From positions 1 through 28,891 of the IMG/VR virus record IMGVR_UViG_3300047553_000145: a DNA stretch of 28,891 nt. The stretch is one strand, 5' to 3'. A program made the translations under genes and the position numbers. Origin of the DNA: a virus. Position 1 is the stretch's first letter. Each line of letters begins with the position of its first letter. A model generated the notes under the pieces. That model made no database searches and had not been told where the DNA came from. It saw nothing but the letters and a program-made list of their open reading frames with translations. Shown piece by piece: positions 9,834 to 26,133 of the stretch.

Positions 9834-9970
9834 CTTCCCTCTTCTGAATCCTCTGGTGGATGAAAAAATTTTCTTGATCCACAGTATAAACAATATGTCT
9901 CAATATGCCCAGCAGCAGTATATTGTCTATCAACAAACATATTCTTAAAACATTTTGTACATTTTAGCAT
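9779..9970 (-). CDS. Small zinc-ribbon protein
   Basis: A 63-residue protein with two CxxC knuckles, C4/C7 (KCTKC) and C27/C30 (YCLYC), predicting one zinc ribbon, followed by a charged C-terminal helix (SEEGRWLLKKEQLRAK). The function is unknown; nucleic-acid or protein binding is the usual role of such ribbons. Its ATG shares one base with the stop of the preceding tail gene (TAATG), and no SD is seen, so coupling is likely. Its 3' end overlaps the MerR-like gene by 55 bases. The preserved cysteine pairs argue that the frame is real. Confidence 0.7.
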   Translation of the reverse strand: MLKCTKCFKNMFVDRQYTAAGHIETYCLYCGSRKFFHPPEDSEEGRWLLKKEQLRAKVTISSL

Positions 9971-10413
9971 TAGTTAGGTATTCCAATGGCAATAATGTTA
10001 ACTGCAACAGATAGATCACCAGTAGAGTTAAACCTAACAATTCCTTCAACCTTTGATGTTGTAACTGTTTTTAAAACAACAGACACATTTTTACCAGCAT
10101 CAGTGCCACCAGTATTAATTGGTGTTGCTGTTACCACGGGAGCATACTTAAAGTCTGCTGCAAAATCATATGAGAAACCAACTTCATTTCCAGCACTCTT
10201 GGTTGCACTTGACACAACATCTACATACCCTCCAATTATTCGGGCCTCTGAAGCCTTTACGCTTTGTTTTCCGACACCAGCAGTATCTACGGTAACATAC
10301 TTATAGGTAGCAGGAGAGATCTGTGTAGACAACTCGTTTATAGCGTTTGCTAATTGATAGATGTATGAAACATCTAGTGGTTGTCCTCGTTCTGGAAGTG
10401 GTAGTTTTGCCAT
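9970..10413 (-). CDS. Small tail or fibre protein, lectin-like beta-sandwich
   Basis: A 147-residue protein. The N-terminus has an extended start and a helix (VSYIYQLANAINELSTQI), as in trimerising fibre proteins. The rest is beta-rich, with FKYAPVVTATPIN, VSVVLKTVTTSKVEGIVRF and a final VNIIAIGIPN. This layout recalls H-type-lectin-like tip domains of phage fibres, so a role in host surface contact is inferred. It is the last of the tail genes before the DNA-binding and replication genes. There is no SD; a perfect extended -10 (TGGTATAAT) lies six bases before the ATG, so it may be translated from a leaderless mRNA. Confidence 0.7.
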   Translation of the reverse strand: MAKLPLPERGQPLDVSYIYQLANAINELSTQISPATYKYVTVDTAGVGKQSVKASEARIIGGYVDVVSSATKSAGNEVGFSYDFAADFKYAPVVTATPINTGGTDAGKNVSVVLKTVTTSKVEGIVRFNSTGDLSVAVNIIAIGIPN

Positions 10414-10419
10414 TATTCT

Positions 10420-10425
10420 ATTATA
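10420..10425 (-). promoter_or_regulatory. Probable extended -10 element (TGGTATAAT) between tail and replication genes
   Basis: A perfect TATAAT on the minus strand, with TGG directly before it, sits in the 15-base gap between two tail genes and ends 6 bases before the ATG at 10413. No -35 is evident. It would give a leaderless message and could also supply transcription for the helicase region downstream. Confidence 0.6.
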
Positions 10426-10428
10426 CCA

Positions 10429-16768: not shown

Positions 16769-17391
16769 TATGCTTCTTCCAGCGTAACAGAGATATTCCA
16801 AAGATCATGATTGGTACCACCACGCTTTTCAACAGAGTATGAAAAGTCTGCAAAGAACATCTCTATGACTTGGCTATATTGTCCCAAATGTCCATACGCA
16901 TTATCATCTTTACCAAAATTAGCATACTTGTCATATGATAGATATACCCAAAATGAACCTTGATGATTCTCGTACCAGTCAAGCATTTCTACTCCGCCTG
17001 CACCACCGTCAGAGGTGTACTCAGTCGTACTTGATTTTCCTAATGAACTAAAATCTGGATTAACATAATGTGAACGAGAAGGCAACATTGACCAACTTGT
17101 TGAAAGTGTTAACTTATCAGCAATGTGTGTTGATCTCATTCTGCCATTAATCATTCTCTCACGTTTTTCAATTCTTGTTGGGGTAAAGGCTAATGGAGTT
17201 CTTCCATCATCAGATAAAATTAGGAATTGATTAAATGTACTTTCATCTGTTTCAGATCCAGTATTAGAGTTAATTTCATATCCGTTTGGAATATATAGTC
17301 CATCTACAAGGGTGCCAGAATTATCTGCCCACAGCATACCTTGTGGTCGTGCATACTTTTTTCTTCCCAACATATAGTTTGCAGATGTCAT
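16768..17391 (-). CDS. Distal tail or minor tail protein
   Basis: A 207-residue protein directly behind the tape measure gene, the usual place of the distal tail protein. It has beta-rich stretches, including GSFWVYLSYDKYANFG and a C-terminal strand pair (VIEMFFADFSYSVEKRG, LWNISVTLEEA) typical of tail proteins that describe a ring structure. No enzymatic motif is seen. AGAGGGG lies upstream and the ATG shares a base with the tape measure stop (TAATG). The identification rests mainly on gene order. Confidence 0.7.
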   Translation of the reverse strand: MTSANYMLGRKKYARPQGMLWADNSGTLVDGLYIPNGYEINSNTGSETDESTFNQFLILSDDGRTPLAFTPTRIEKRERMINGRMRSTHIADKLTLSTSWSMLPSRSHYVNPDFSSLGKSSTTEYTSDGGAGGVEMLDWYENHQGSFWVYLSYDKYANFGKDDNAYGHLGQYSQVIEMFFADFSYSVEKRGGTNHDLWNISVTLEEA

Positions 17392-20300
17392 TATTGTCTA
17401 ACCCCTCTTAGTCTTTGTGAATCTATTTGTTTAATCTGAGCCATAACTGTTTTTGCAATTTCATTTGGATTAGCATCAGACTTAACATTAACACTTAGGT
17501 TATAAGTATACACCGAATCACCAACTGATGAACCATTATTAATCGCCTTCATCTTATCCACACCATGGGCATTAACTGCATACTTACTCATAACAAATTC
17601 TCCAGGGGTTAGCATTGCTGGAACTGTATCTGTTCCTCTGGCAAAACCTCCTGCTGCAAAATACTTTGGAACAAGTCCGCCTTTACTTAAATATCCAAGA
17701 GCCTGCTTTCTTGCATTGACAATATCAATTGAAGCAAGAGGCTTGATGTCTGCAAGTTCTTTCATCATAATAACGGTTGCCTGCTCTGCTACATCAATCT
17801 GCCCATCATTAACTAGATCTTGAATATATGAAGATGTTTCATTTAGGAGTTCTGTTTGTTCAGTGTTAAGTCCTGGCTTTGGTGGTTGTTTAGTAGTTTG
17901 ATTCTTTCCTCCTCCACTGCCTCCTGCTCCTCCTGCTCCTGCTGCTGCAGCGTTTGCTTCTTGAATTGCAGCCAAAACCTTTTTCCATGCAGCCTCCAGA
18001 TCCAATGCTGCATCTGCAAGGTCATCTGTTAATCCAAGCAGCCCCTCTTCTCCTAACCAATCCGCAGTTGTTTCAATAACAGTATTGATTGAATCCCACT
18101 CTGCTTTAGTTTGTCCAGCAGCATTTGTAACATTATTAATTGCCTTGGTCATATCATTATTATATTTATCAATAATGCGCTGCATATCTTTAAGTATTGT
18201 TTCTTGAACTTTAACCTTATCGTTTAATGTTTTTAGTGTTGTTTGTTCAGATAAATAAATCTCATCTTCTTTAACAATAATTGCATCCTGTAACTGTGTT
18301 CTAGTATAATACTGACCATTAATCTCTACCTGTATATTCTTAAGTTCTTGCTCTTTCTTAAGTTCTAGATTTTTCTTTTGATTTTCTAGATTACTAATAA
18401 ATGTTTCTTGAGAATTTTTGGCAGCAGTTGCCCTCATGTCTTGAGCAATTTTTGCTGCTGCTCCGATATCTCCAGAGGAAAGCGCACCAGCCAAATCTGT
18501 CTGTTGCTTTTGTTGATCAATTAGTTGATCATTAATTTTTACAACTTCTTCTAATGCAGAGATTTGAGAATCAATGGCTTCAAACTGTTTATCATATGAC
18601 TCATTTATCTTATTCTCTTGTCTAGATATAAGTTCAAGGCCTCTACTGTATCGATCAATCTCCTCTTGACGGACATTATTCTTTTCTTGTTCAGCATCAA
18701 TTTCTTCCTGAATTCCGTCAATGATGTCTTGCTGATCTTTTATTAATTGCTCATATTGCTCTGGAGAGTATCCTCTTAGTTTAGTAAAGTCTGCTCTTGC
18801 TTGCTGCTTGATAATTGCTTCTTGTGCAGCAAAATATTCATTCATTCTATCGGTTGATGTTTCTTGTTCTTGCTCATTTCTGAATGCTAAAATCTTAAGT
18901 GTTTTTGCAAGTTCTTTAACTGAAGAATCTGCCTGCTTAGCACCTGAAATAAAATTATTCCAATCTGCACTTCCAACTTTTTCTACTGCAACTGCAGCAG
19001 TTAGCGCTTCGTTCCCAAGTATCTCTGTAATCTTGGCAGCAGATACACCAGCCTCTGAAAGTTTCTTGTATGCTTCAACCTGCTCGCCTGCATTAGTTTT
19101 AATTTTTTGCTGGGTATTTACAAAATCTCCCAATTCTATTTCAGTAGCAAACTTATTAATAGCATCGCCAAGTTCTCCAAAAACTACCTTTCCATCTTTT
19201 CCAAATGTATAGAGTGCATTCTTTTTATTGAGAATCTTAAAGTCTGCTGGATCAATTCCACGCATAATCTCGATAAAGCCTTCTGTTGCGCCACCAAGTC
19301 TAAGCATTTCTTCTGTTCCCTTAAACCCAGTAAGATTACCCTTTAATTGGGCAATAAACTCCTTGGTTCCTCCAGTTGCATTAATAGATGCTTTTCTTAC
19401 TTCTTTTAATCTCTTTAGTAACCCATCAATAAATGCATATGGATCATTACCCTTGGATCCAGCATCGTTGATTCCTGTTGTACCATTCACAGTTGGTGAA
19501 TCTGGCTTAACTTTATTTAATTTATCTAGTTCCTTCTTTATTCCAGCAATTTTATCAAGTTGTGCATTATAGGCTACGCTAGCACCAAGATTTAATGCCT
19601 TGCCACCTCTTGCACGATTAATTTTATTGATAGAATCCTGATTAATCTTTTCAATTTGTAATACAGTTAATCTCTCGTATTCTACACGCAACTGCATCAT
19701 TGCTCTAAGTCCCTTTTCAGAACTTGGAATATCTGCAATAAAAGCAATCTTTTCTTCATATGTTTTGCCAGAAAGATTTTTAAGCATTAGGTCCATCTGC
19801 AGAATATCAGTCTCAGTTAAACTTCCTCTAGCATAATTCATTAAAATTTCTGTTTGCACACTCTTTGGCATTGCTTTTAAGATTCCCTTAATCTGACCAG
19901 CAACCTTTTTATTTGTTTTTTCAAACGGTGCTAAAAGTGTATTTGCAAGATCTTCCAAAGCCATTCCTGCTAACTCTCCAGAAGAATCAATTTCATTAAG
20001 TTGTTTAATATACTTAGCAGAAGACTGTTGTAATAAATTAAAGTTAGCCATAGTTACAGCATGCTTAGCGTTATATTCTTCTTGAGATATTGTACCGTCA
20101 ACATATGCTGCATTAAGTAGTGCTAAAGACTGTCTTTGCTTTTCAAAATTAAGTGCTAGCGTATTTGTAACACTGGCAACATTATTTTGATTGGCAATAT
20201 ATTTATCTTCTTTTTCCTGGATTCCTGACATTGCTGTTCCAACTCCAGCACCTGTAATATCACCCAAGAATCCAGCCTTAAACTTATCCCATAGGCTAGG

Positions 20301-23300
20301 GGCGCTTACCTTTTTAATCTTTGGAATAAGAAGATCTAGTTGTTCTCCAACAGATTTTACATCAGCACCGAGATAGTTCATTCGAACGTCAAGAGTTAGT
20401 GGTGTACTCAAGATGTCGTCTCCATTAGGAGCAAAAATCTTATTTAGTCTAGCCTTTACCTCTAGTTCATTTGCACCGCTTTGTTCTGTTGCTGCTTTTA
20501 TATTTGCTGCGATGTCTGCTGGATCTAAACCATTGACAGCAATTCTATTTGCGATATCTTTAACTGTTGCAGTAAGCGCTTGCTCAATGCCTTTGCCCTT
20601 TGCTGCTTTTAGAACTGCTGCATCTCCAGCACCCTGGTTTGCATAGAAGTCTCTAAACTTTGCAAGTTTTGCTTTATCTGCACTGATAAATCTTTCATTT
20701 CCAACTCTATTAAACTGTCTATCTGAAGGCAATCCACCATCGCCAATAAATGCTCCATAAGACTGTAGAGATCCAACAGATCCTTGACGTATTTCTGCTT
20801 CTTTCTTTGCAGATTCATTCAATTTCTTGACATAGTCATCTTGTGCTTTTCTTGCCAATAAGAATCCAGCGGTAAGTGCAGCAACTCCTGCTACTGCTAA
20901 TCCTATTGGATTAGTAAGCATTGGTAGAAGCATTGCAAATGTTTGCAGCCCCATAATAGCAGGCATTAGGCTTTGTGCAAACTGTCCTACCTGTCCAGGC
21001 ATCATTGCTGCACCCATTGCTACACCTGATGCAACCATTCCATACTTCATTGCTCCGCCTGAGATTGCTTGAGCATTGGCTCTCATTTTACTATTTTCAA
21101 ATCGGTTGGAGATTCTTTGTCTTAGTGACTGTCTCTTTGGCACTGATGGCATTCCCAAAAATACTGGAGATGATTTTGAACCACTAGAACCTGAACCCTT
21201 TGGAACTAATAAACCAGAAGAAGTTTGTTCAAATTCATCAAGGGCCCCTTGTGCAATTCTTTGTGCTGCTGCCTTAACTTCTGGAGCCTTTTTATTCATT
21301 CCAACAATTAGTCCTTCAGAAATATTTTGACCTACTTTTTCCGTAAACTCTGATGGAGATGCAGTTTGTGCTCCCTTTGCTACTGCTGTTACTGCAGCCT
21401 TTCCTAGTTGAGATCCTCTTTGTTCTAGTACTGCTCTTAACTTAGAAACTTTACGCTCTACAGTTTGTGCTGACCTTGGATCTAGAGCAGAGTCATATGC
21501 TCTTTGTTCTAATGTATCATAGTAATTACCAGAAAGTCTAACTCCAAGACCAGCCTCCGCTGCTTTAGCCTGATACCCAGTATCTGTTTTGGCAATTTCT
21601 CTTAATACACCCGCTGCTTGTGCAGTTGTTGGATGTATACCTGCCTTAAACTTTTCAACCTCACCACGTACTTCTTCTACTGAAATTCCTAATTTAATAG
21701 CAGCGTCATCTACATTTGACTTAGAGAAGTTATCTAAAACATCTTTGTTTTGTTGTAATGCATTTATATAGTTATTAACATATCCAAGATCTGCTTGAAG
21801 ATTTTCTGCTCTCCAATTTTTAATAGCAATATCTTGTCCACCAATATCCATACTAGAAACATCTGGAGCAATGTGTGATGCCTGCTTTCTAGTTAAGTTT
21901 CCAATTTTCTTTGCTGCTCTATCTGCATTTTCTCCAACAGCATCAAGCGCCTCTTGTGCAGCATTAGTAACAGCAACTAACTCATCAGCAAGTGTATCCC
22001 ATGAAAGAGTCTTGCTTTGCTTTAATACTGAATATGGTGCTTTAAAGAGTCCTAATTGCTTCTTTAGATTTCCTATACCTAAAGACTCTAATCCACCAAC
22101 TACTGAACCTGGATCTTTTGCATATCCAGGAATATCAATCTTTCTACCCTGAAGCAGCCCAGCAACAATTCCAGGGTTCTTCTTTACAGTGTTTACAGAT
22201 AAAACGACTTCTCCATTTGAAAGGTTTGCTGGAACCATGTCATCTTTAGGTCCTCCAGGTCCAGAAACAATGCCACCATTTGCAAATCTTTTTGGCTGTC
22301 TAGACTGTGGAACCATCATTCCTGGATTATTAAATGCAAACCTTTCAGAAGCAGCGGCTGCGGAAAGATAAGCATTACGTAAATTATTTACTGCATCTGC
22401 TTCAACTGTAAAGCGTTGTGTAAGTCTAGCGTGAACCTGATCAAGTGAGTGGGCTACTGCTTCTGCCTGCATTTGCTCACTTGTTAAATATTGTGTTTGC
22501 TCTCCTAAATATTTTGACTGTCCAGTTAGTTTCAAGTAGCCATTTCTAATTATTCCAAACAATTTCATCATCTGTCCAGCAAAGTTTGCTATCAAACCAA
22601 CAAGCATTAAAACAACTGGACCAACTCCTGCAAACAATGTGACTAATGTTGTAATTACTTTTTTAGTTCCGTCAGACAATCCATTAAACTTATCTGCTAT
22701 CTTTGTAAAAAACTCAATAATTGGTGTGACAACCTTTAAGAATGCTTCTCCAACTGGTGCAATAGATGCTCTTAATGATTCTACTGCTGCTTTAAATTTA
22801 GTTGCAGAATTTTCTTCAATTGCATTTAATTCTTTGTTTGCAATTGCAGCAAGGTCTTGTGATGACATCTTAACAAGTTCAAGTGCATTTGCTGCTTGAG
22901 ATCCAGATCTAGCAACGTTGTCAAACAATGCAGATACTCTAGCAAATTGAAACTTTCCAAACAATTTTTCTAAAATTCTTTGTCTTGCTAGTGGCGTTAA
23001 TTCCTTCATTGCATCTGCAAGATTAAGTACCGTACGCATAATGTTTCCTTCATTTTTAGAAACAATAGCATCAATATCTATATTAACGCCCTGAAGCATT
23101 TCTCTTGCAGCCTTGCTTGGATTGATGATAGATGCCAATGCTGACTTTAAACCGTTTGCTGCTTCTGCTGCATTTACACCACCCTCTTGCATTGCTGCAA
23201 GGAATACTGACATATCTTTAATATCTCCACCAAGACCTTGAATAACTGGAGCCACTCTTGGTATAGCATCGGTTAAATTCTGCAGGCTAACAACAGATTG

Positions 23301-24284
23301 GTTTTCAACTGCGTTAAGGAAGTTAATTGATTCAGCAAGTTGATCACTGTTCATCTTAAATGCAGTTTGTATTGCAATTGTTGCTGAAAGGGCTTGCTGC
23401 TTATCCACCTCGCCAAGCACGGATAGTCTAGTTGCAGCCTTTACCTGATCTGCAAGTTTTTGTCCTTGAAAGCCTGCTGCTGCTGCATCTGCTGCAATAG
23501 ACATTGTGTCTGCAATTGCAACACCATACTTGGTAAATTCTTCTGCAAGTCCTCTAATAAAAGTTAGGTTTGCATCTGTCTCTGATGGAAGTGTGAGAAG
23601 ATCTCCATAAACTCTTCTAAACCTAATAACTTGTTTTTCAAGGTCCATAAATACTTTAGATGCCGTGGAACCAAAAATGCTTAATGGTATTGTAAAACCT
23701 ACCATCAATTGTCGACCAGCCCACTGTGTATTCTTACCAAAATTAATTAAGTTTGTTGTACCTTGTGCTAAAAGTTGATTAAACAACTGCTGCTTTTGAG
23801 CAGCCATCATTGTCTTGGTGCCAAGGTTTTCCATATCAAGAGCAAGTGGTGTGACAGCAATTGCTTTCATTGCTCCAGAGGCATCTCTGCCCATCTTAAT
23901 ATACTGTGTCTGTAATCTTCTTACACGCTCTTCAGCAACCTTGTTAATGGTTTCAAACTCAGTCTTAAAGACTTTACCAAAATTTTTAGAGGAGGCTACT
24001 CCGTATCTAAAGTATTCACGCATTGAGAATTTATTCTTCTCAAGTGAATTTGTGAATGACTCAGCGGATGTTTTTATTGTCTGCATTCGAGCAGCAAATT
24101 GACCCGTAGCATTTATAGAATTAAGAAATTCTTGCTGCAGGTTTCTTTGTGCTATCGTTGCCGATGCAGACGATTTTGCTATCTGATTGTGAAATTGTGA
24201 GATCTGTCGCTGTAGGTTTTTTAACTCACCTAGGGCTGCAGACGTGTCAATATTAACGCTGATATTAGCATTAACATCTGACAT
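17391..24284 (-). CDS. Tail tape measure protein
   Basis: A 2297-residue tape measure protein that sets tail length and is ejected with the DNA. The TP901-type core is at about 190-400 (IADTMSIAADAAAAGFQG, AVENQSVVSLQNLTDAIPRV, MQEGGVNAAEAANGLK). Hydrophobic segments lie near 545-575 and 1105-1145. A long coiled coil occupies about 1840-2050, rich in E, Q and K. A glycine-rich linker follows near 2115. A GG-rich motif with VPA-LS-GE occurs twice, near 665-700 and near 2205-2235. At roughly 1.5 angstroms per residue, the rule for such proteins, the tail would be in the range of a few hundred nanometres (estimate). The ATG follows AGAGGTGAGA, downstream of the two chaperone genes. Confidence 0.96.
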   Translation of the reverse strand: MSDVNANISVNIDTSAALGELKNLQRQISQFHNQIAKSSASATIAQRNLQQEFLNSINATGQFAARMQTIKTSAESFTNSLEKNKFSMREYFRYGVASSKNFGKVFKTEFETINKVAEERVRRLQTQYIKMGRDASGAMKAIAVTPLALDMENLGTKTMMAAQKQQLFNQLLAQGTTNLINFGKNTQWAGRQLMVGFTIPLSIFGSTASKVFMDLEKQVIRFRRVYGDLLTLPSETDANLTFIRGLAEEFTKYGVAIADTMSIAADAAAAGFQGQKLADQVKAATRLSVLGEVDKQQALSATIAIQTAFKMNSDQLAESINFLNAVENQSVVSLQNLTDAIPRVAPVIQGLGGDIKDMSVFLAAMQEGGVNAAEAANGLKSALASIINPSKAAREMLQGVNIDIDAIVSKNEGNIMRTVLNLADAMKELTPLARQRILEKLFGKFQFARVSALFDNVARSGSQAANALELVKMSSQDLAAIANKELNAIEENSATKFKAAVESLRASIAPVGEAFLKVVTPIIEFFTKIADKFNGLSDGTKKVITTLVTLFAGVGPVVLMLVGLIANFAGQMMKLFGIIRNGYLKLTGQSKYLGEQTQYLTSEQMQAEAVAHSLDQVHARLTQRFTVEADAVNNLRNAYLSAAAASERFAFNNPGMMVPQSRQPKRFANGGIVSGPGGPKDDMVPANLSNGEVVLSVNTVKKNPGIVAGLLQGRKIDIPGYAKDPGSVVGGLESLGIGNLKKQLGLFKAPYSVLKQSKTLSWDTLADELVAVTNAAQEALDAVGENADRAAKKIGNLTRKQASHIAPDVSSMDIGGQDIAIKNWRAENLQADLGYVNNYINALQQNKDVLDNFSKSNVDDAAIKLGISVEEVRGEVEKFKAGIHPTTAQAAGVLREIAKTDTGYQAKAAEAGLGVRLSGNYYDTLEQRAYDSALDPRSAQTVERKVSKLRAVLEQRGSQLGKAAVTAVAKGAQTASPSEFTEKVGQNISEGLIVGMNKKAPEVKAAAQRIAQGALDEFEQTSSGLLVPKGSGSSGSKSSPVFLGMPSVPKRQSLRQRISNRFENSKMRANAQAISGGAMKYGMVASGVAMGAAMMPGQVGQFAQSLMPAIMGLQTFAMLLPMLTNPIGLAVAGVAALTAGFLLARKAQDDYVKKLNESAKKEAEIRQGSVGSLQSYGAFIGDGGLPSDRQFNRVGNERFISADKAKLAKFRDFYANQGAGDAAVLKAAKGKGIEQALTATVKDIANRIAVNGLDPADIAANIKAATEQSGANELEVKARLNKIFAPNGDDILSTPLTLDVRMNYLGADVKSVGEQLDLLIPKIKKVSAPSLWDKFKAGFLGDITGAGVGTAMSGIQEKEDKYIANQNNVASVTNTLALNFEKQRQSLALLNAAYVDGTISQEEYNAKHAVTMANFNLLQQSSAKYIKQLNEIDSSGELAGMALEDLANTLLAPFEKTNKKVAGQIKGILKAMPKSVQTEILMNYARGSLTETDILQMDLMLKNLSGKTYEEKIAFIADIPSSEKGLRAMMQLRVEYERLTVLQIEKINQDSINKINRARGGKALNLGASVAYNAQLDKIAGIKKELDKLNKVKPDSPTVNGTTGINDAGSKGNDPYAFIDGLLKRLKEVRKASINATGGTKEFIAQLKGNLTGFKGTEEMLRLGGATEGFIEIMRGIDPADFKILNKKNALYTFGKDGKVVFGELGDAINKFATEIELGDFVNTQQKIKTNAGEQVEAYKKLSEAGVSAAKITEILGNEALTAAVAVEKVGSADWNNFISGAKQADSSVKELAKTLKILAFRNEQEQETSTDRMNEYFAAQEAIIKQQARADFTKLRGYSPEQYEQLIKDQQDIIDGIQEEIDAEQEKNNVRQEEIDRYSRGLELISRQENKINESYDKQFEAIDSQISALEEVVKINDQLIDQQKQQTDLAGALSSGDIGAAAKIAQDMRATAAKNSQETFISNLENQKKNLELKKEQELKNIQVEINGQYYTRTQLQDAIIVKEDEIYLSEQTTLKTLNDKVKVQETILKDMQRIIDKYNNDMTKAINNVTNAAGQTKAEWDSINTVIETTADWLGEEGLLGLTDDLADAALDLEAAWKKVLAAIQEANAAAAGAGGAGGSGGGKNQTTKQPPKPGLNTEQTELLNETSSYIQDLVNDGQIDVAEQATVIMMKELADIKPLASIDIVNARKQALGYLSKGGLVPKYFAAGGFARGTDTVPAMLTPGEFVMSKYAVNAHGVDKMKAINNGSSVGDSVYTYNLSVNVKSDANPNEIAKTVMAQIKQIDSQRLRGVRQ

Positions 24285-24308: not shown

Positions 24309-24641
24309 TTAAGCATTTGCTGCAAGTGCGGAATTCAAGAATGAATCCTCACCTAGTTTAATACCAGAAGCAACATCCACAATCTTATATACTGTTGGAA
24401 GATCAATATTTGCTTCCAACGCTGCTGCATCCTTTGCCAATTCTGGCTTATATTGTTCTAGTGCAATTTGTACGCACTCCATTAGAACTGTCATTGACTT
24501 ATCATTATCATCTGCTACCTTTGCAATCTTGTCAAAGGTCTTCATAAACTTACGAAGCAAAGATACGCTTAGTGGCTTAAGTTCAAGTTCTGTACCGTCC
24601 ATAAGAGTTACTTTATTTGCTTCATATACTGTTGTTGTCAT
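24309..24641 (-). CDS. Tail assembly chaperone-like protein, short form
   Basis: A 110-residue protein placed before the tape measure gene, where tail assembly chaperones (lambda gpG-type) are found. Its helical core (LKPLSVSLLRKFMKTFDKIA, then MECVQIALEQYKP and LPTVYKIVDVASGIKL) lines up with the N-terminal part of the upstream 225-residue protein, so the two are probable paralogues. It lacks the C-terminal extension. I prefer the ATG at 24641 because GGAGG lies four bases before it. An in-frame ATG at 24662 has TATAAT five bases upstream and could give a form with seven extra residues. It probably coats the tape measure during assembly. Confidence 0.8.
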   Translation of the reverse strand: MTTTVYEANKVTLMDGTELELKPLSVSLLRKFMKTFDKIAKVADDNDKSMTVLMECVQIALEQYKPELAKDAAALEANIDLPTVYKIVDVASGIKLGEDSFLNSALAANA

Positions 24642-24667
24642 TTTTCCTCCATTTTTAGACATTACTA

Positions 24668-24673
24668 ATTATA
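24668..24673 (-). promoter_or_regulatory. Probable extended -10 element (TGCTATAAT) before the short chaperone gene
   Basis: A perfect TATAAT preceded by TGC on the minus strand lies in the gap between the two chaperone genes. It ends 5 bases before the in-frame ATG at 24662 and 26 bases before the SD-led ATG at 24641. It may raise expression of the short chaperone, the tape measure and genes behind it. A TTGACA exists further upstream but at 21 bases, too far for a normal -35. Confidence 0.6.
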
Positions 24674-24688
24674 GCATGAAACATACGC

Positions 24689-25366
24689 TTATTTTGTCAA
24701 ATCTTCGTAATCTAGTCCCATACCAATACCAAATCCTGCTTTCTGTGCTTTTGGACCTTGAAAAGAAACAATATCATTTGCATCAGACGTCTTGCCACCA
24801 CTAAATACTCTAGCCTTCATTTCTTCCCAAGCGTTAGACTTATCACTTTGCTCATCAAGATTTACACCTTGCATAGCAGCATCAAACTTCTTTTGTTGAT
24901 ATTCTAAGTCTCTTTTAGTTGATAGCAATAGCGTAAGTTCTGGCATAGATATAGAGTCTTCTAGTTCTTCAAAGTTTTTCCATATTCCCGTCAAAAATGC
25001 CTCTGCCTCAAGCGTTGGTAAATCTATTTCTGCCCACGTAGTTCCATCTTTATTTTCTACACCAGGATCTGCTGTGTTGGATGTTTTAATTTCTGCAGCA
25101 TATTCTAATATTTTGTACAATGTTTTTAGATCGAAACTATTTGCAATAACATCTTTATTTAAATAAACATTTGGTGCAAACTGGTGCATGGCAATAAATA
25201 CACAGTCTATGACTAGATCTAAGGCCTCATCTTGATCATCAGTTTGAGAGACAAGAACGAACTTGTCCATAAACTCTCTCATATATTTTATTTTAAGTGG
25301 ATAAACTTTTATAACATTTCCGTTGATGTCTTCTACATATCCAGTTTTATAAACTTCTTTTGCCAT
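24689..25366 (-). CDS. Tail assembly chaperone-like protein, long form
   Basis: A 225-residue protein. The N-terminal half (about 20-100) has the helical chaperone pattern (VYPLKIKYMREFMDKFVLVS, IDCVFIAMHQFAP, LKTLYKILEYAAEIKTS) shared with the next gene. The C-terminal half (MPELTLLLSTKRDLEYQQKK, AMQGVNLDEQ, NAWEEMKARVFSGG) resembles the T-extension of gpG/gpGT systems. It would link the tape measure to the tube protein during tail assembly. There is no overlap with the next gene and no clear slippery heptamer at a useful place, so frameshifting is not apparent. There is no SD; TGGTATACT lies six bases before the ATG, suggesting a leaderless start. It follows the terminator behind the tube gene. 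Confidence 0.8.
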   Translation of the reverse strand: MAKEVYKTGYVEDINGNVIKVYPLKIKYMREFMDKFVLVSQTDDQDEALDLVIDCVFIAMHQFAPNVYLNKDVIANSFDLKTLYKILEYAAEIKTSNTADPGVENKDGTTWAEIDLPTLEAEAFLTGIWKNFEELEDSISMPELTLLLSTKRDLEYQQKKFDAAMQGVNLDEQSDKSNAWEEMKARVFSGGKTSDANDIVSFQGPKAQKAGFGIGMGLDYEDLTK

Positions 25367-25372
25367 CTAAAC

Positions 25373-25378
25373 AGTATA
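25373..25378 (-). promoter_or_regulatory. Probable extended -10 element (TGGTATACT) for the long chaperone gene
   Basis: TATACT with TGG directly before it ends 6 bases before the ATG at 25366 on the minus strand. It stands right after the T-rich tail of the terminator, where a new transcription start is needed. There is no SD between it and the ATG, so the transcript is probably leaderless. Confidence 0.6.
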
Positions 25379-25384
25379 CCAAAA

Positions 25385-25422
25385 GAAAAATAGAAAAGCC
25401 CAGACTTTTTACGGTCTGGGCC
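25385..25422 (-). terminator. Rho-independent terminator behind the major tail protein gene
   Basis: On the minus strand an eight-base-pair GC-rich stem (GCCCAGAC pairing with GTCTGGGC, positions 25421-25414 with 25405-25398) encloses an eight-base loop. It is followed by TTTT and further T-rich sequence. The T tract is on the minus-strand 3' side only, so it acts on transcripts of the tail tube gene. It starts about 20 bases after that gene's stop codon. Confidence 0.9.
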
Positions 25423-25441: not shown

Positions 25442-26056
25442 TTAGGCTGTTACTGTACGATCAACGATCTTACCGTATGAACCATCATTGTTTGGAAGAA
25501 GACGGAAAGTTACATCGAACATTGTCGCTGCATCTCTCTTAGCAGATACTGTAACGCTCTCAATTGAAAGTGCACGGTATGCTGTATAGATTCTCTCCAA
25601 GTTTGAACCTTCAGCACAGTCACCTGTACCTGGTCCTACTGCAACAAGACCACGCTCTACTGGACATTCGCCAATTTCGCCTGCTGACATGTTGAGCACT
25701 GTTCCACCACCTGTAAGATCTCCTTCTGCGCCTGCGATAGCGAAGAGAAGATTTTCCAAAGTTGCTTCTGCAAATGATGTTGCAAGGCTGACCTGCATTC
25801 CCTGCTTGAACAGTTTTGCTGCGTCAAGGACTTGGTCAACTGAAACTTCTGCGAAGTCTGGTTGGAATGTAATTTCGAGACCATTTGATGTATATCCGAT
25901 ATTACGGAAATCTGCATCGTCTGAAAGTGTATCCTTGAAAGAATCACCATCTACGTATGCTGGTAGGTCTGCTGCGGCTAGTTCGCCAGCCTCGTATGTG
26001 AACAGCGCTGCTGCTCCAACGATAATCTGAGAACTGTTACCTCTTGTATATGCCAT
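25442..26056 (-). CDS. Major tail (tube) protein
   Basis: A 204-residue protein predicted to form the tail tube. It is beta-rich with an acidic surface (MAYTRGNSSQIIVGAAALFT, GLEITFQPDFAEVSV, ESVTVSAKRDAATMFDVTFR). Its place between the tail terminator and the chaperones is the standard one for the tube gene. I use the ATG at 26056, preceded by AAGAGGTGAAAACT. A GTG three codons upstream lies inside that SD and is less likely. The gene is clearly richer in G and C than its flanks, and it has its own promoter and terminator. All this fits a very abundant structural protein with selected codon use. No Ig-like C-terminal extension is present. Confidence 0.88.
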   Translation of the reverse strand: MAYTRGNSSQIIVGAAALFTYEAGELAAADLPAYVDGDSFKDTLSDDADFRNIGYTSNGLEITFQPDFAEVSVDQVLDAAKLFKQGMQVSLATSFAEATLENLLFAIAGAEGDLTGGGTVLNMSAGEIGECPVERGLVAVGPGTGDCAEGSNLERIYTAYRALSIESVTVSAKRDAATMFDVTFRLLPNNDGSYGKIVDRTVTA

Positions 26057-26110: not shown

Positions 26111-26116
26111 ATTATA
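26111..26116 (-). promoter_or_regulatory. Extended -10 promoter (TGTTATAAT) for the major tail protein
   Basis: A perfect TATAAT with TGT before it lies in the 77-base gap upstream of the tube gene on the minus strand. It should give a leader of about 48 bases that contains the AGAGGTG SD. No good -35 is seen. Unlike the other -10 sites here, it is followed by a real leader. With the terminator behind the gene it makes the tube gene a separate strong unit. Confidence 0.65.
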
Positions 26117-26133
26117 ACAGCGTTTATTATGAG

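Follow-up and report, generated by a model that had tools for sequence, protein, structure and literature searches.

The stretch of DNA analysed here, referred to as the window, is a virus record of 28,891 bases carrying a putative pair of tail chaperone genes on its minus strand, flanked by the tail-tube and tape-measure genes. In the order of minus-strand transcription, the gene for the major tail (tube) protein (25442..26056, phrog_2175, with its own leadered promoter TGTTATAAT at 26111-26119) is followed by those for a 225-residue protein (24689..25366), a 110-residue protein (24309..24641) and a 2297-residue tape measure protein (17391..24284), the last of which has a Shine-Dalgarno (SD) sequence and is without a promoter of its own. 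The two middle open reading frames (ORFs) lie where the original prediction had placed them. The longer, termed GT (TAC-NC), is an in-frame fusion of a G-like (TAC-N) domain (residues 1-97, 25076..25366) and a T domain (residues ~111-225, 24692..25036), the same fused ORF being present in 127 distinct relatives. The shorter is termed G (TAC-N), a stand-alone short chaperone.

The signals upstream of the two genes, also on the minus strand, differ in kind, as had been predicted. G is preceded by an extended -10 element of its own, TGCTATAAT (24668..24676), and by a strong SD, GGAGG (24646..24650). GT has the extended -10 TGGTATACT (25373..25381), a predicted leaderless promoter that is conserved in relatives, and no SD; that the element is set 6 nt upstream of the GT ATG, a leaderless spacing, had been missing from the prediction. 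An intrinsic terminator hairpin with a predicted stem of -15.9 kcal/mol (25397..25422) separates the tail-tube gene from the GT promoter. An in-frame ATG at 24662, upstream of the G start, would give a protein of 117 instead of 110 residues; both here (window region 24641-24676) and in a few near relatives it lies 5 nt after the -10 of the G promoter, again a leaderless spacing, and a 117-residue leaderless form of G is possible.

The paralogy of the two proteins was evident from BLASTP (31% identity over 95 residues, E=2e-16) and from profile-profile comparison (probability 99.9, E=1.4e-37, 98 columns). An in-order alignment of the short protein with residues about 20-100 of the longer one had been proposed; the similarity is real, and its extent is to be corrected to residues 1-95. 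The motifs listed with that proposal were all located, including W-x-x-M after A-x-QG. Phrog_10504 matches both proteins (2.5e-9 for the G-like domain of GT, 6e-22 for G), while phrog_10474 matches residues 128-186 of the 225-residue protein (6e-17). Given that the T ORF of Streptomyces phage Evy, annotated as a separate chaperone, also matches phrog_10474, the 225-residue protein was recognised as a G-T fusion. The annotated tail assembly chaperones of Streptomyces phages were matched by tblastn with E down to 3e-21, and two traits of such chaperones were seen, namely a short and a long form with a common N-terminal domain and a position between the tail-tube and tape-measure genes. Judged by these comparisons, phrog_10504 and phrog_10474, both labelled “unknown function”, represent the G part and the T part, respectively, of a tail assembly chaperone. 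The predicted folds of G and of the G domain of GT contain the same strands and helices. For both models the closest structural neighbour was the HK97 chaperone 2OB9, a weak match (Z 4.8 and 5.0) that came first only in the second structural aligner, and Foldseek against the PDB returned nothing at E<=0.001 for either model. Both genes are under purifying selection, with dN/dS well below 1 wherever computable. A host or prophage search across bacterial genomes found nothing.

Relatives of the locus were surveyed among IMG/VR records and Streptomyces phages, with domains assigned by fixed domain profiles. Two arrangements were distinguished: type A, in which a fused GT is followed by a separate G, and type B, in which G is followed by T in the -1 frame. 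The survey yielded 127 distinct usable type A loci and 52 of type B; a later search added 9 and 51, respectively. No intermediates between the two types were present among the surveyed loci, the few incomplete cases being contig edges. The frame of G relative to GT takes all three values in type A, as would that of separate genes, and the relative frame is always -1 in type B. In one locus (L042, 4753-5039) the stand-alone G is split across two frames, through either a sequencing error or a broken gene. In another (L036), 776 nt lie between GT and G and hold an ORF of ~200 residues resembling, by eye, a SAM-dependent methyltransferase; adjacency of GT and G is therefore not required.

The signals for programmed frameshifting are kept in type B and lost in type A. 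An in-frame slippery heptamer lies within the G/T overlap in 42 of the 52 type B loci (GGGAAAC in 33, CCCAAAT in 7; CCCAAAC also occurs), and the -1 frame is open for 68-133 codons beyond the G stop; the 10 loci without a strict heptamer come from Streptomyces phages resembling Evy and from relatives of these. A heptamer is absent from 122 of the 127 type A G tails, and in type A the -1 frame closes no more than 19 codons beyond the G stop. Within the window, neither G nor the GT linker contains a heptamer, the sole one in GT falling in the middle of its G domain. To judge from these sequences, the type A lineage has lost both the heptamer and the -1 T frame from G, and related phages obtain the counterpart of the T domain of GT by moving to the -1 frame at a slippery heptamer.

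The direction of this change was read from a tape-measure tree (~600 columns, rooted on the Streptomyces phages), in which type B occupies the base as a paraphyletic group, with type A nested inside it as one clade (support 100/100); frameshifting is thus ancestral and the two-gene form derived. Together with the loss of the relatives' heptamer and -1 T, this bears out the central proposal of the original prediction, that two paralogous genes stand in place of a G/GT frameshift. In the G tree, the stand-alone G proteins (A_G), 44 of them including that of the window, group in a single clade (98/97), and a second (96/94) comprises the G domains of GT (A_GTn). As far as these two trees show, duplication with fusion appears to have happened once. 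The T and tail-tube trees did not resolve the A/B split, and an arrangement holding A_T together was not rejected (p-AU 0.31). Four loci (L216, L338, L340 and L341) combine a type A tape measure with a type B cassette carrying CCCAAAC/T, and the G of this subclade lies outside the A_G clade (99/98). On the simplest reading, they have apparently regained the frameshift cassette through recombination.

The two copies of the G sequence have not evolved alike. Mean identity between representatives is 67% for stand-alone G, 48% for the G domain of GT and 67% for T; G and the G domain of GT in the same genome are only 29-50% identical, the N-domain of GT being the fastest-evolving. Such divergence would suit a G-like domain of GT that had acquired a new task, for example that of a mere tether between T and the tape measure, and that no longer co-assembled with G, in which case the functions would have been split and not replaced like for like. 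That reading is nevertheless considered rather unlikely, since the fold elements predicted by modelling are equal in G and the G domain of GT, and since one clade exchanged the gene pair for a frameshift cassette with identical G parts, which implies that the divergence is not essential.

Across type A, an extended -10 (TGNTANNNT) was found 4-9 nt upstream of the GT start codon in 121 of 126 genes, where shuffled sequences would be expected to give 2.3; the spacing is exactly 6 nt in 81 of the 126, and an SD core is present upstream of none. The G genes have an extended -10 within 60 nt of the start in all 127 cases, at a distance of 14-38 nt, with an SD core in 98%. Upstream of the tape-measure genes there is an SD, and a promoter in only 3/119. 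A generic sigma-70 scan, which requires a match to the -35, detected promoters no more frequently than in shuffles; the extended -10 statistic is the one that discriminates. A hairpin like the terminator of the window was recovered by a lenient scan in 126/126 relatives, a weak count since a control region gives 54/127. According to PMC3160421, about one-fifth of genes in Actinobacteria are leaderless, and such genes are recognised by a TANNNT ~12 nt upstream of the start codon in combination with the lack of an SD; the GT of the window has this combination. In type A, the GT mRNA would accordingly be of the leaderless kind and the G mRNA leadered.

A second promoter of the leaderless type, TGGTATAAT-N6-ATG without an SD, was noted in the window at the gene 9970-10413 (region 9970-10428), so that leaderless expression in this phage probably extends to genes other than GT.

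It could be argued that the -10-like element beside the GT ATG is not the promoter of GT at all, and that GT is translated without an SD from transcripts reading through from the tail-tube gene; consensus matches are indeed no proof of function, and some SD-less genes are translated otherwise. Against this stand the tight spacing of the element, its 121 occurrences compared with the 2.3 of shuffles and the terminator just upstream, and read-through as the source of GT is regarded as improbable. In mycobacteria, leaderless mRNAs are translated about equally to leadered ones and are perhaps transcribed less (PMC4633059, PMC7148126), so that a leaderless start alone is no sign of low GT. Since GT and G carry different expression signals, the G:GT ratio is probably set by promoter and initiation, and the conserved signals support the original prediction on this point. 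That the ratio might still come from frameshifting, with a slip in the GT linker yielding the short form in the manner of dnaX and the downstream G serving as a spare or specialised factor, is highly improbable, for although some X-XXY-YYZ heptamer occurs near the linker in 38 of 127 GT genes, as expected from AT-rich DNA, no heptamer is conserved, 89 of the 127 (and the linker of the window) have none, and the stand-alone G, as the better conserved copy (67% compared with 48% mean identity), is unlike a spare.

Read directly from the sequences are the paralogy of the two genes, the fusion in GT, the loss of frameshifting, one origin on the tape-measure and G trees, and conserved leaderless and leadered signals. 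The explanation proposed, which is considered very likely overall, is that a G (TAC-N)/GT (TAC-NC) gene pair, generated by duplication and fusion, replaces the -1 frameshift, with a leaderless GT and a leadered G. In the ancestor, a single gene would have given both the short and the long chaperone via -1 programmed frameshifting. G would then have been duplicated, with an in-frame fusion to T in the upstream copy and neither T nor a slippery site in the downstream one. GT would be produced from a leaderless mRNA beginning at its ATG, right after the terminator. For G, a separate promoter would yield a leadered mRNA with a strong SD, and G would probably also be produced by read-through from GT, along with the tape measure gene. 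By analogy with lambda, G would bind the tape measure and GT would recruit the tube protein, G being likely in excess and GT the minor product. A fuller account is given about an even chance of being right: that the frameshift was replaced once by duplication and fusion, that the leaderless/leadered mRNA pair sets the ratio via transcription start and initiation, that the change is reversible through cassette exchange, and that the G domains, once freed, diverged to become partners with distinct surfaces.

It has long been asked why ribosome slippage is so widely retained for tail chaperones. Here, the frameshift was lost from a large clade, retained by its near relatives and apparently regained by one subclade, which makes it possible to compare the two modes of ratio setting among closely related phages. 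In addition, the G sequence in G and that in GT, which frameshifting locks together, are separated in this clade, and the copy in GT evolves much faster.

The nearest cultured relatives found are Stanwilliamsviridae, represented by the Streptomyces phages Blueeyedbeauty, Wakanda, TunaTartare and Evy, which have homologous G, T, tail-tube and tape-measure genes; they differ from the window in having a single G gene, T in the -1 frame and a leadered promoter only. Lambda G/GT and other -1 frameshift tail chaperones have reportedly been treated by Xu, Hendrix and Duda and are reviewed in PMC5009743. The window resembles lambda G/GT in the position of the genes in the interval between tail tube and tape measure and in the provision of G alone and of a G-T fusion, and its direct cousins frameshift in this way; unlike lambda, it involves no frameshift, the two products coming from two genes with diverged G parts. 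The lambda tape measure becomes coated with G, and the less abundant GT brings in the tube protein through its T part, G and GT standing at ~30:1 (PMC5009743). Microbacterium cluster EA1 phages (TeddyBear genes 15/16) have two chaperone ORFs with no evident frameshift (PMC7302621); they were rejected as an instance of the same arrangement, the two genes having no mutual similarity and corresponding to the N and C halves of the fused family phrog_18843.

In some T4-like phages, frameshifting is dispensed with in favour of two chaperone genes, one short and the other longer and fused, according to what PMC10885494 relates of Vladimirov et al. (2022). In T4 itself (L397), gp26 and gp51 match each other by BLASTP (E=2e-6), both belong to Pfam PF12322 and their genes lie on opposite strands; by this comparison they would fit as the short and fused-long pair of T4. 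These paralogous T4 proteins are annotated as baseplate hub proteins. The window is like the T4-like pair in having a separate short gene and a paralogous fused long gene, with no need of a frameshift. It differs from that pair, which belongs to contractile tails and lies on opposite strands, in its tandem genes, its frameshifting lineage, its leaderless/leadered signals and its traceable origin. PF12322 gave no match in the window proteins at E<=1, and the sequence families of the T4 pair are unrelated; the likeness to T4-like two-gene chaperones is treated as convergent and would have been reached independently. Within the literature covered, which was incomplete, no paper was found on leaderless expression of a tail chaperone or on such a chaperone duplication in siphoviruses. 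A short and fused-long chaperone pair without a frameshift is thus already known from T4-like phages, and what is new is this variant, with its unusually clear history.
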